Shown piece by piece: positions 3,161-6,418 of a DNA stretch of 6,418 bases (its first letter is position 1; each line of letters starts with the position of its first letter). Source of the DNA: Erythrobacter sp. (lineage in GTDB: Bacteria > Pseudomonadota > Alphaproteobacteria > Sphingomonadales > Sphingomonadaceae). A model generated the notes under the pieces. That model was not told where the DNA came from. It saw only the letters and a list, made by a program, of their open reading frames with translations, and did not search any database. Both the position numbers and the translations under genes were made by a program. Location: the NCBI GenBank assembly GCA_002695185.1, contig NZOF01000156.1, positions 1-6,418 of the forward strand. The letters run 5' to 3'.

Positions 3161-3574
3161 ATGGCGTGGCTGCATGCCACGCCCAAGCCGCCAGCGGGAA
3201 CGAAGCGGGCGGCGGCGAAGGATCAGCCGCCCGCGATCAGCCGGATGGAGCGATACAAGCGGGATGGCATCGTCCCGCAGATGCCGCCCAACCCGGCCCC
3301 TCACATCATCAACCGGCTGGTGGAGATCGGCCTTTCCGAAGCGGCCGGCATGGGCTCAGGCCCGATCAGCTGGCTTACCATCGATGCATGGTGCCGGCGG
3401 ACAGGCATCGACCTTGCGCCGTGGGAGGCCCGCCTGCTGCGATCGCTCTCAGTCGCCTATGTGGCGGAAGGGCGCAGCGCCGAGAGCGAGAACTGTCCGG
3501 CGCCGTGGCGGGCAGCGCCGACGGAGCGGGAAAAAGAGCTGGAGCTTGCCCGGCTGCGGTCGGTGCTGGGGTGA
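3161..3574 (+). CDS. T-like tail assembly chaperone, expressed as the C-terminal part of a gpGT fusion
   Basis: This frame is -1 relative to gpG. The first internal ATG is at 3161, giving 137 residues, but it has no Shine-Dalgarno. The reading frame before it (ELKLYVRQ just upstream of the ATG) looks like real coding sequence back to the slippery site. The biological product is therefore most likely the join 2724..3116 with 3116..3574, 283 residues, close to lambda gpGT (about 280). The T part shows a linker rich in Pro, Ala and Lys, then PPNPAPHIINRLVEIG (residues 42-57) and the segment from GPISWLTIDAWCRR to LAPWEARLLRSLSVAYVAE. It then has a CPAPW motif (107-111) and a charged helix ending ELELARLRSVLG. 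I recognise the W-E-x-R-x-L-R-x-L-S-x-A-Y and C-P-x-P-W motifs from tail proteins at this position in proteobacterial prophages. By analogy the T domain binds tail tube subunits while the G domain binds the tape measure. Confidence 0.8.
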   Translation: MAWLHATPKPPAGTKRAAAKDQPPAISRMERYKRDGIVPQMPPNPAPHIINRLVEIGLSEAAGMGSGPISWLTIDAWCRRTGIDLAPWEARLLRSLSVAYVAEGRSAESENCPAPWRAAPTEREKELELARLRSVLG

Positions 3575-3644
3575 CTCGACTCACTCCGATCTGATTGTCA
3601 CGTTGCCACACTCATCTGCTTTGCGGGGAGTGATCAGCGTGGTC

Positions 3645-4079
3645 ATGTTGATGAAGGGTAACGGCCGTTTCGATTTCAACATCGTTGGTGAGAGCCACCG
3701 GCAAAATCACCTAAGCTGGATCGCAGGTCCAAAGTCTCCATCAGGGCATGATCTTGACTGCCTGGCAGCCCTTGTTCGACATGACGATAATCTGCACGAC
3801 GATAAGGCGGTTGCCGTCTTCATCGTTTTCGCGAGTGGAAAGATTCTGATCGTTGGCTATTTAGCGCGAAAAGATGCTCGCCGTTACAGGTCATGTCTTA
3901 AAGACCTGGGCCGCGAGGATCCCGAGGGCATGCTATGTCGCGCAAAAATTGTTGGTGGTTGGGACGATGGCGCAGGCAATGAGGGTCATTACGGCGTCAA
4001 ACTGGACCTGATGATGCCTCTTAAGTTTGGCACCATCAAATCGTGGGATAGTTGGAAACAGCGGCTGCTGCCCGGATGA
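3645..4079 (+). CDS. HIRAN-like single-domain protein (moron)
   Basis: A 144-residue protein not expected in a tail module. Its motifs match what I know of bacterial HIRAN-domain proteins: a first strand ending GESHRQ (15-20), DDNLHDDKAVAV (47-58), GYLARKDARRYR (71-82), then CRAKIVGGW (98-106) and GHYGVKLDL (114-122). HIRAN domains in the HLTF helicase family bind 3' ends of single-stranded DNA, and stand-alone bacterial forms are presumed nucleic-acid binders. A role in phage DNA protection, repair or host takeover is inference. There is no nuclease or helicase motif beside it. The start is uncertain. ATG 3645, ATG 3651 and GTG 3639 are in frame, and GGGGAG at 3625-3630 is best spaced for GTG 3639 (8 bases). 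The frame is open far upstream, but that stretch lies over the chaperone gene. Lower GC than the flanks suggests separate acquisition. The gene ends 28 bases from the convergent minus-strand gene. Confidence 0.72.
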   Translation: MLMKGNGRFDFNIVGESHRQNHLSWIAGPKSPSGHDLDCLAALVRHDDNLHDDKAVAVFIVFASGKILIVGYLARKDARRYRSCLKDLGREDPEGMLCRAKIVGGWDDGAGNEGHYGVKLDLMMPLKFGTIKSWDSWKQRLLPG

Positions 4080-4107: not shown

Positions 4108-4458
4108 CTAGAATGCTCGTTTTGCGGGCGCGGCTTTGACGGCGCACTCTCCATGCTCGCCCGGGTCGCTCAGTGGCATGAAGGCAAATGTGCGACGTAG
4201 CGAAGACGAAACACGGTTAATGATCCACGTCGTTTGATCGTCAACGACCTTGATCTCGGTTGGACCGAACAACCCGTCACGCGAGACAGTGCGCCCGCTG
4301 GGTAAGCCGATCGTCACCTTTTGGTTATCTTCATCCAAAGCTATTTCGACTGGAATAAGACCCGTTTCTTGGACCAGCTGACATACGAGGTAGGTAGGCT
4401 CCGCCATCGCGCCTGTCGTCCATGAGAATGCAGCAATCGCTGCCATCGCCCTGATCAT
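4108..4458 (-). CDS. Small exported (periplasmic) protein of unknown function, antisense to the tail operon
   Basis: A 116-residue protein on the opposite strand to every other gene here. The N-terminus is a clear Sec signal peptide: MIR, a hydrophobic Ala/Met/Ile core, then TTGAMA with likely cleavage before EPTYLVC. The mature part of about 97 residues is beta-rich in appearance (IPVEIALDE, KVTIGLPSG, TWIINRV). It has two cysteines, one just after the start of the mature chain and one near the end (GECAVKAAPAKRAF), which could form a disulphide in the periplasm. There is no lipobox. I chose ATG 4458 because GAGAGGG lies 6 bases upstream and the signal peptide length is ideal. ATG 4464 and GTG 4473 are in-frame alternatives. 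Similar short secreted proteins occur as hypotheticals in sphingomonads, to my recollection. Function is unknown. An envelope-acting lysogenic conversion or superinfection-exclusion role is speculation from context. Confidence 0.68.
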   Translation of the reverse strand: MIRAMAAIAAFSWTTGAMAEPTYLVCQLVQETGLIPVEIALDEDNQKVTIGLPSGRTVSRDGLFGPTEIKVVDDQTTWIINRVSSSLRRTFAFMPLSDPGEHGECAVKAAPAKRAF

Positions 4459-4472
4459 CACCATCCCTCTCA

Positions 4473-4488
4473 CTGCCCAACCGGGCAG
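4473..4488. repeat. Perfect inverted repeat between the exported-protein gene and the tape measure gene
   Basis: CTGCCC (4473-4478) and GGGCAG (4483-4488) form a perfect 6-base palindrome around AACC. It sits immediately downstream of the candidate minus-strand promoter, at or just after its expected transcription start, and upstream of the tape measure ribosome binding site. It could be an operator half-site pair or a 5' stem-loop in the minus-strand message. No T-run follows on either strand, so it is a poor terminator. Confidence 0.45.
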
Positions 4489-4490
4489 CC

Positions 4491-4519
4491 CTTCTATCGT
4501 GGAGACACCCCATGGACAA
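4491..4519 (-). promoter_or_regulatory. Candidate sigma70-type promoter for the minus-strand moron
   Basis: Read on the minus strand, TTGTCC (4519-4514) and TAGAAG (4496-4491) each match 4 of 6 consensus bases and are separated by exactly 17 bases. Initiation would fall near 4485-4483, giving a leader of about 25 bases before the ATG at 4458. The -35 element overlaps the first codons of the tape measure gene. A self-standing promoter is expected for a gene opposing the late operon, but the match is modest. Confidence 0.35.
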
Positions 4520-6418
4520 TGACAGTCCCGGTCTGGGCGTCGGCTTCACGATCGATCCCGAAGGTTCATTCGACACGCTGCGCCAGCTGCAGGCCGCCAT
4601 GGACAGCACAGAAGGGCGGATCGTGCAGGAGGCCGCCCGGATCGAAAAGGCGACCAGCGGCATGGTCAAGCTGGGCGGCGCCGTGGTCGAGATGGATAGT
4701 TTCCGGAACGCCGCGACCCGCGCGGGGCGCGAGGCGGCGCAGGAATTCGCCCGTGTCGAGAAGGCCGGCGAAGCGATGGTGCGCCAGCTGGAGCGCCAGA
4801 ATGCGAGCTTCGGCAAGACGCGTGATGAGCTGCGCGCGCTTCGCGCCGCCGAACTGGCGGCGTCAGCGGAAAGCGTCGGCAATATCGACCTTGCCAACCG
4901 GCTGCGCGCCGAAGAGGCGGCGCTGTATGACAAACAGTTCGCCGCCGCGCGCCGCGCCAGCCAGGAAGCGCAGGCGATGGCTGAGGACAAGGCAATCGCG
5001 GCGCAGCGGGCGGTAGCGGCGGCGGAAGCGGAGGCGCGCGCCATCAAGGCGGCGGCGGTCGCGCATGACATCTTCCAGCTGAAGGTCCGACAGGGCGTGC
5101 AGGCGATGCGCGAAGCCGAGGCGGCGCAGAAGATCGCCGATCGCGATGCCGCTGCCGCCAAGATCCGCGCCGAGGCAGAAGCCACCGCACGCTTGACCGC
5201 CGAACATGCGCGCCTGGCTGCCATGGTGCGGGGATCGCAGGCGGCGCTGGAGGCGGATGCCGCCGCGGCCGAGCACATGCGCATGTCGACCGACCCGCTC
5301 TATGCGGCGACCAAGCGGCTGAATGACGAGATCGCCGAATCGACGCGGCTCTACCAAGCCGGCGCGACCGCTGCGCCGGAATATGCGCGACAGCAGGAAG
5401 TGCTCACCGGCCGTCTGCGCCAGCTGAGCGCCGTGCAGGACGATGCGACGCGCGTGGCGTCGAAGCATGGCGGAACGCTGACGCAGCTGTCGTTCCAGAT
5501 CAACGACATCGCCACCATGGCCGCCATGGGCGCGGCGCCAATGCAGATATTCGCCAGTCAGGCCGGTCAGATCTTCCAGGTGGCGCAGATGGCGGAAGGC
5601 GGCATCAAGGGGTTCGCGCTCCAGATGGGCGCGCTGCTGTTGCGCTTTGCGCCTGTGACGGCGGGGCTTGCCGTCGCCGGCGTGGCATTCTCGCGCTGGC
5701 ACGATCAGCTGAACGATGACGCGGGCCTCAAAGCCTATGCGTCGACGCTGGGGCTGACCGCAAAGGAGATGGACCGCCTGAAGGATGTGACGGTCACGTC
5801 CGGGGACATCATGAACGGTATCTGGAAAACGTTCGACGATCGCACGAACATTTCCGGCAATACGAAGAAGCTGATCGACTGGCTGTTTTCGCCGAATGAT
5901 GTGCAGACGGTCGCGAATTTCGTCGCCGAGATCTATGGCGCGTTCGTCGGCGGCTACAAGGCCGTCGTCGCGACCTGGGCCATGCTGCCTTCCGCCATGG
6001 GCGATCTGGTCGCCCAGGCGACCAACGCGACCATTGCCAAGCTGGAGTCCATGGTGAATGCGTCGATCGAGGGGATCAACGGCCTTGCCCGCCGCGCCAA
6101 CGACCTGCTGGGGTTCGAGCTTTTCGGCCAGATCGCCAATGTCACTATCGACCGGGTGACCAACCTCTATGAGGGCGCGGCGAGCAAGGTCGCCAGCACG
6201 TTCGGCGACAGCGTAGCGGCCGAAACGAAGCGGGCGAAGGACTGGATGTCCACGCTGGTCGGCGACATCGAGAAAAACACCTTCGCCGCGTCCCGCGCGC
6301 GCCTGGACAAGCAGCGTGACGACATCCTGAAGAAGCGGTCGGAAAAGACGGACAAGCATGCCGAAAAGCTGGCGCGTGAGGCCGCCGCGACCGAAGCGCA
6401 GATCCGCAACCTCTACGC
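4512..6418 (+). CDS. Tail tape measure protein (TMP_2-type), truncated by the window edge
   Basis: An open frame from ATG 4512 to the right edge, 635 codons with no stop, so the protein is longer. GGAG at 4501-4504 with a 7-base spacer supports the start. By family knowledge the tape measure protein spans the tail lumen, fixes tail length and helps DNA enter the cell. Residues about 20-270 are an almost unbroken Ala/Glu/Arg/Gln-rich helical stretch, predicted coiled coil. Residues 326-356 contain the signature I use for assignment, LSFQINDIATMAAMG followed by APMQIFASQAGQIFQ, matching the Q-x-x-D-I...G-x-P...QxGQ core of lambda-type tail length proteins (PF06791). Hydrophobic helices follow at about 368-393 and 467-493, candidates for membrane insertion during DNA ejection. 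The last 40 visible residues return to a Lys/Arg/Glu coiled coil. At roughly 1.5 angstrom per residue, the visible part alone implies a tail of about 95 nm or more. Confidence 0.88.
   Translation, partial: MDNDSPGLGVGFTIDPEGSFDTLRQLQAAMDSTEGRIVQEAARIEKATSGMVKLGGAVVEMDSFRNAATRAGREAAQEFARVEKAGEAMVRQLERQNASFGKTRDELRALRAAELAASAESVGNIDLANRLRAEEAALYDKQFAAARRASQEAQAMAEDKAIAAQRAVAAAEAEARAIKAAAVAHDIFQLKVRQGVQAMREAEAAQKIADRDAAAAKIRAEAEATARLTAEHARLAAMVRGSQAALEADAAAAEHMRMSTDPLYAATKRLNDEIAESTRLYQAGATAAPEYARQQEVLTGRLRQLSAVQDDATRVASKHGGTLTQLSFQINDIATMAAMGAAPMQIFASQAGQIFQVAQMAEGGIKGFALQMGALLLRFAPVTAGLAVAGVAFSRWHDQLNDDAGLKAYASTLGLTAKEMDRLKDVTVTSGDIMNGIWKTFDDRTNISGNTKKLIDWLFSPNDVQTVANFVAEIYGAFVGGYKAVVATWAMLPSAMGDLVAQATNATIAKLESMVNASIEGINGLARRANDLLGFELFGQIANVTIDRVTNLYEGAASKVASTFGDSVAAETKRAKDWMSTLVGDIEKNTFAASRARLDKQRDDILKKRSEKTDKHAEKLAREAAATEAQIRNLY

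Follow-up and report, generated by a model that had tools for sequence, protein, structure and literature searches.

The window, that is, the whole stretch of 6,418 nucleotides analysed here (contig NZOF01000156.1), belongs to a virus record of 28,746 bases and carries, between the genes for a tail assembly chaperone and the tape measure protein of a phage tail module, an open reading frame (ORF) for a small stand-alone protein with a predicted HIRAN fold (Table 1). A first-pass annotation made from the sequence alone had placed a HIRAN-like protein at 3645–4079 between these two neighbours and in the orientation of the late operon. The ORF is indeed present (144 amino acids (aa) from ATG 3645), both neighbours are identified by Pfam, the gene lies on the operon strand, and the four motifs listed in that annotation are all found in the translation: GESHRQ (residues 15–20), NxxDDKAVAV (as NLHDDKAVAV, 49–58), VGYL (70–73), and GHYGVKLDL (114–122).

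Fold, reading frame, and neighbours of the HIRAN protein

The AlphaFold model of the protein (pLDDT 92) predicts the HIRAN beta-barrel fold, and the best fold matches of the model are the HIRAN domains of lp_0118 and of the DNA-repair enzymes HLTF (human) and Rad5 (yeast). The proposed stand-alone HIRAN domain is thereby borne out at the level of the model, and the comparison with the HLTF domain suggested in the first-pass annotation yielded no different fold. The window protein alone scores 13.6 bits against Pfam HIRAN (PF08797), below the cut-off of 24.7; nevertheless, 45 of the 48 aligned members, including the window protein, match the family at E ≤ 0.1 (best 1.4e-9), and PF08797 is precomputed on 9 of the 56 homologue rows. 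Because the cut-off is missed while these members match, HIRAN membership is claimed here by homology and fold and not by the single-sequence score. Candidate matches to TATA-binding protein, Mitoregulin, and adenylate-cyclase-like proteins were rejected as weak, local, and confined to the same strand-loop stretch, and they are absent from the top folds. The 144 aa are modelled as a single domain with no Pfam match above cut-off; no effector domain is fused to the protein, and a comparison with PADLOC gave no match at E ≤ 1.

Human HLTF holds a dinucleotide by stacking Y72 and Y93 on its two bases, and NN90,91AA served as the point mutant (PMC4666394). In the profile alignment, the window protein has N49, H51, and D52 at the places of HLTF N91, Y93, and D94, with a histidine instead of Y93, and these columns are nearly invariant among the 48 members (N in 47, H/Y/F in 47, D in 48). 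The equivalent of Y72 is H18 in a low-confidence stretch of the global alignment, with H/Y/F in 25 of the 48 members, and the F142 region of HLTF cannot be aligned reliably with the window protein. From the HIRAN fold and the pocket residues we infer DNA-end binding, and we consider it moderately probable that the protein would bind DNA 3′ ends through the conserved HIRAN pocket. A hydrophobic N-terminal segment is lacking in all 15 close-family members examined, including the window protein. By a simple hydropathy count, such a segment is found in 13 of the 48 members of the broader alignment A1, among the remoter stand-alone HIRANs (e.g. P0019, P0036, and P0041), which may represent membrane-tethered DNA-end binders in bacteria.

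The likely start of the gene is GTG 3639 rather than ATG 3645, as judged from a Shine–Dalgarno-like GGGGAG 8 nt upstream of the GTG, from the database copy of the protein (P0001), which starts there with VVMLMKGNG, and from several homologues with a start at the same position (e.g. P0002, P0003, P0006, P0007, P0010, and P0012). With 55 homologues besides itself at E ≤ 1e-3, purifying selection (see below), and a confident model, the ORF is beyond chance, and its frame is open in all four full-length copies (the window and the phage loci L004, L005, and L006). A frameshift fusion with the chaperone was considered, since in these four loci the open HIRAN frame extends backwards into the chaperone gene, but the frame relation differs (one frame in the window and L005, the other in L004 and L006), which makes conserved programmed frameshifting improbable. 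Upstream of the gene, a sigma-70-type scan gave no promoter; the single promoter-like site lies within the gene at 3762, and a terminator scan found none flanking it. With its orientation on the operon strand and no upstream promoter in the scan, late expression of the gene is plausible.

Table 1. Features of the window around the chaperone/tape-measure junction.
Feature	Position	Strand	Basis or remark
Tail assembly chaperone (TAC2), left border of the cargo site	3161–3574	+	Pfam Phage_TAC_18, 32.5 bits (cut-off 27), 9.4e-8
GGGGAG, Shine–Dalgarno-like	3625–3630	+	8 nt before GTG 3639; read from the sequence
HIRAN-fold protein (predicted)	3639–4079	+	GTG 3639 (146 aa) or ATG 3645 (144 aa); stop codon 4077–4079
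Second cargo gene, small protein	4108–4473	-	Between the HIRAN gene and the tape measure
Hairpin CTGCCC-AACC-GGGCAG	4474–4489	+	Just before the tape measure, T-poor tail; read from the sequence
Tape measure protein, right border of the cargo site	4512–6418	+	Runs past the window end; Pfam TMP_2, 37.7 bits (cut-off 30.2), 2.4e-9; PHROG tape measure families also match

The minus-strand gene downstream of the HIRAN gene had gone unmentioned in the first-pass annotation. By eye, the N-terminus of its product resembles a signal peptide; the C-terminus has a RAF motif, and the model of eight beta strands (pLDDT 85) gives mixed barrel matches, including PliC/MliC lysozyme inhibitors. The hairpin before the tape measure gene is absent from the results of both terminator scans and, read from its letters, would be at most a weak terminator.

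The record that contains the window (L009, 28.7 kb) also codes for an integrase (L009:4384-5739), which lies between two head-protease/capsid pairs (L009:144-3602 and L009:10286-12116 (-)). It may represent two adjacent prophages joined together, or a prophage and a satellite, and given the two pairs the integrase is not certainly that of the window's phage. We infer a host among the Sphingomonadales from the taxa of the 25 genome loci in which the chaperone search met a relative (Sphingomonas, Sphingobium, Novosphingobium, Sphingosinithalassobacter, Rhizorhabdus, and one Erythrobacteraceae bacterium); remoter chaperone relatives with about 27–35% identity are found in phages of Acinetobacter, Salicola, and Mannheimia. 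Rfam gave no match within the window, no tRNAs were found in the virus record, and a comparison with plasmids gave no DNA match and one protein match (40.5%).

The chaperone/tape-measure junction as a cargo site

The junction between the two tail genes serves these phages as a site for cargo (morons), filled in about half of them and empty in the other half. A chaperone profile search, from which 80 of 124 viral relatives were kept, together with 25 genome loci and the window gave 106 loci and, after removal of 17 duplicates, 89 non-redundant tail modules, in which the gap from chaperone to tape measure was measured with tape-measure N-termini. The gap is 14–73 bp (empty) in 43 of the 89 and 351–2598 bp (filled) in 42, and the remaining four junctions are incomplete. 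The GC content of the junction DNA is below that of its flanks in 41 of the 42 filled loci (mean difference 7.4 points). The position of the HIRAN gene, which the first-pass annotation had called out of place, is therefore not anomalous, and gp15 of phage HK97 is located at the same position.

A six-frame search with the family profile found HIRAN in five of the 89 junctions (the window, L010 (= L005), L026 (= L004), L081 (= L006), and L017), which is not an unbiased frequency because the survey alignment (A3) was built from four HIRAN-bearing phages. Four of the five belong to one family. A close-family search of viral contigs returned four more contigs (L004–L007), always with the gene at this junction, and together with L017 these provide the recurrent insertion point for which the first-pass annotation had proposed a survey of related tail modules.

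The fifth HIRAN is part of a very different protein of 228 aa (L017:8457-9143 (+)), found at the only HIRAN locus that the survey reached without seeding. Its match in the six-frame search is weak (E 0.001), while Pfam HIRAN matches residues 133–200 above cut-off (1.9e-10). In BLASTP, the likeness to the window protein is restricted to the stretch around NxxD; a profile-to-sequence comparison aligned 62 columns (89% probability). A search with the whole protein, of a kind that requires shared exact words, returned the protein itself alone. Nine phage records, including PaMx74 and A1432, contain matches of 39–48% to its HIRAN part.

Other cargo was identified by a Pfam scan of 65 ORFs, hand-picked from 104 of at least 80 aa, with antisense-looking or overlapping ones left out. 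Five of the 65 are HIRAN ORFs, two of which match Pfam HIRAN at E ≤ 1e-3, and the other families include TM2 membrane proteins (5 of the 65 ORFs), Rha, DUF6232, and a ParE-like toxin with a helix-turn-helix (HTH) partner, a pair seen in two phages (L026:6220-6851 and L055:2087-2718 (-)). Among these ORFs, PADLOC models for HTH, RmrA, capH, and PDC-M03B match 1–2 ORFs each. The minus-strand gene family of the window is found in eight of the 89 junctions (the window and seven further loci); in L013, whose chaperone is 83% identical, this gene is present and the HIRAN block is missing. A terminator-like hairpin precedes the tape measure gene in 10 of the 42 filled junctions, the window not included, compared to 0.08 expected from mononucleotide shuffles. 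In addition, a stretch containing GTGTAT/TGTATC was observed within 60 nt past the chaperone stop in eight of the 42 filled junctions (L031, L034, L035, L048, L079, L092, L106, and L110) and in none of the 43 empty ones, where those 60 nt are partly tape-measure coding; the pattern was picked after looking, and it is possibly a shared promoter or recombination element.

Between the window and L005, the HIRAN proteins are 72% identical vs. 93–97% for the neighbouring tail proteins, and the proportion of synonymous differences (pS) is saturated in the HIRAN gene (0.875, with a nonsynonymous proportion (pN) of 0.17) vs. much lower values around it: 0.19 (upstream tail gene), 0.29 (gp17), 0.32 (both the tail tube gene and the tape measure), and 0.35 (chaperone). 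Between the window and L004, the dN/dS of the HIRAN gene is 0.125. A saturated pS together with a modest pN points to an older or exchanged allele and fits cassette exchange, and on this ground fast arms-race evolution was rejected as the source of the 72% identity; the copies in the window and L005 seem to have split well before the sequences around them diverged, and they are under purifying selection. The HIRAN gene is also atypical in base composition (GC 0.52, GC3 0.55; minus-strand gene GC3 0.61) compared to seven tail and connector genes (GC3 0.75–0.85). It thus shows two traits of a moron: it is an addition between conserved genes that close relatives lack, and its composition is unusual.

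On a chaperone tree of all rows, whose bootstrap had not settled, filled vs. empty junctions need 16 changes (shuffled mean 28.7; 0 of 500 shuffles as low) and the presence of HIRAN needs four (shuffled mean 5.0; 22 of 500 as low), indicating a filling that is in part inherited and in part switched, and a weak clustering of HIRAN. In a tree of the HIRAN family, where the similar P0002 stood in for the L005 copy, the four rows labelled as tail-site do not form one branch; no conclusion was drawn from it, as context is lacking for the close members P0003, P0005–P0013, P0015, and P0016.

The homologues are not confined to chromosomal housekeeping loci, a pattern that the first-pass annotation had held against its own idea. 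Nor did the searches point to a chromosomal housekeeping role for this sublineage: a close-family profile (A2) matched 2 of 397 Sphingomonadaceae genomes, both weakly (66 and 43 bits), and 0 of 385 genomes of the wider class in a search that had no positive control; none of its 12 pattern matches in genome contigs was confirmed. The broader profile (A1) matched one of ten genomes carrying the tail module (E 3.9e-5), and Pfam HIRAN has 62 matches spread over 41 of 298 Sphingomonadaceae genomes. A HIRAN relative with 42% identity also occurs in Nostoc phage Nsp-JY10 (L002:6035-6484), beside a gene annotated as HTH_XRE and outside the tail module.

Possible roles of the HIRAN protein

We favour, at a rough probability of 0.55, the reading that siphophages of the Sphingomonadales, probably temperate ones, carry this stand-alone HIRAN-fold protein as a moron, an exchangeable piece of cargo, at the chaperone/tape-measure junction, and that it would bind DNA 3′ ends. 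What computation shows is the predicted HIRAN fold, a recurrent insertion site that relatives leave empty or fill with other genes, exchange in the manner of a cassette, and purifying selection. With regard to mechanism, the protein would be made from the late operon and would sit on the ends of the phage DNA or of its forks during replication, by which host end-directed nucleases or end sensors (e.g. HIRAN-bearing Hip kinases) would be kept off the phage ends. Such late shielding of phage DNA or fork ends from host nucleases or sensors is a tentative hypothesis. A broader version, in which the junction gained HIRANs of two very different families separately since capping of 3′ ends is useful, with the protein acting as a competitor of host end sensors, including Hip kinases, and representing a new type of counter-defence, is speculative and rather improbable.

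Alternatively, the protein may serve defence by lysogenic conversion, being made in the lysogen to sense or trap free ends of incoming phage DNA. The precedent is HK97, which encodes the moron product Gp15 at the same junction, with a putative terminator after the gene; Gp15 acts in superinfection exclusion and is predicted to be located in the inner membrane (PMC10883804), and the related HK022 lacks the gene; further cargo at the surveyed junctions, such as the TM2 membrane proteins and toxin-antitoxin pairs, would also suit a lysogen. However, the HIRAN gene lies on the late-operon strand with no upstream promoter found, a hydrophobic N-terminal segment is absent from all 15 close-family members examined, and the protein has neither a fused effector domain nor a PADLOC match, making this role doubtful.

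A role in the late DNA metabolism of the phage itself, with ends or forks bound during replication, recombination, or packaging and no link to defence, is less probable still. It would agree with the co-orientation with the late genes and with phage DLP4, in which a HIRAN gene of unknown function is located inside the DNA replication and repair module (PMC6469090). Yet the gene is exchanged like a cassette, and in 84 of the 89 relatives with the same chaperone the junction yielded no HIRAN (four of the 89 junctions being incomplete), so no conserved step can depend on the protein unless those genomes encode it in another place.

Patchy presence and low GC would be expected of a neutral passenger without function, which is very unlikely in view of the low pN against a saturated pS (window/L005), the dN/dS between the window and L004, the open frame in four full-length copies, and the near-invariant pocket residues. 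A tail-assembly factor, e.g. an extra chaperone, is suggested by the place between chaperone and tape measure and is hardly credible given the HIRAN fold, the 43 empty junctions, and a composition unlike that of tail genes.

Known HIRAN proteins and junction morons

Stand-alone phage HIRANs are already known. The domain was defined by Iyer, Babu, and Aravind in 2006, in a paper that reportedly mentions stand-alone forms in prophages. HIRAN genes are present in phages DLP4, PaMx28, PaMx74, and LfeInf, and Gp253 of Bacillus phage G belongs here by fold only; the DLP4 gene sits in a replication and repair module, whereas that of the window sits in a tail operon. The bacterial stand-alone HIRAN lp_0118 (PDB 3k2y), a 109 aa chain shorter than the window protein and 19% identical over the aligned part, is named only as uncharacterised, while the window protein is phage cargo. 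The HIRANs of HLTF and Rad5 resemble it in fold, in the NxxD strand-loop, and in the aromatic or histidine residue at the Y93 place, but are parts of large multidomain proteins, whereas nothing is fused to the window protein.

The same difference separates it from the bacterial HIRAN domains that have been proposed as sensors of phage DNA ends (PMC8262856): these are joined to HipS-like or kinase domains, as in the HipN antitoxin and the HipL kinase, and the window protein has neither. Prokaryotic HIRAN domains have also been called uncharacterised (PMC11090510). With HK97 Gp15, annotated as 'moron product', the window protein shares the insertion point, which is a junction of 20 bp without a gene in HK022. 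The 62-codon gp15 codes for a predicted inner-membrane protein, and exclusion of its type would involve a block to DNA injection; the window protein, in contrast, has no hydrophobic N-terminal segment and a predicted fold of the DNA-binding type. The first-pass annotation knew of no described role for a single-domain HIRAN protein at this locus, and the excerpts of open-licence PMC literature searched contain no report of a HIRAN gene at the chaperone/tape-measure site or as tail-module cargo.

The survey maps a cargo site of Sphingomonadales phages that harbours, in its 42 filled junctions, many other unstudied small genes. With a small stand-alone phage HIRAN that lacks a membrane segment, a known moron site, and natural sister phages with and without HIRAN, the junction offers a clean test system for the end-sensor idea.
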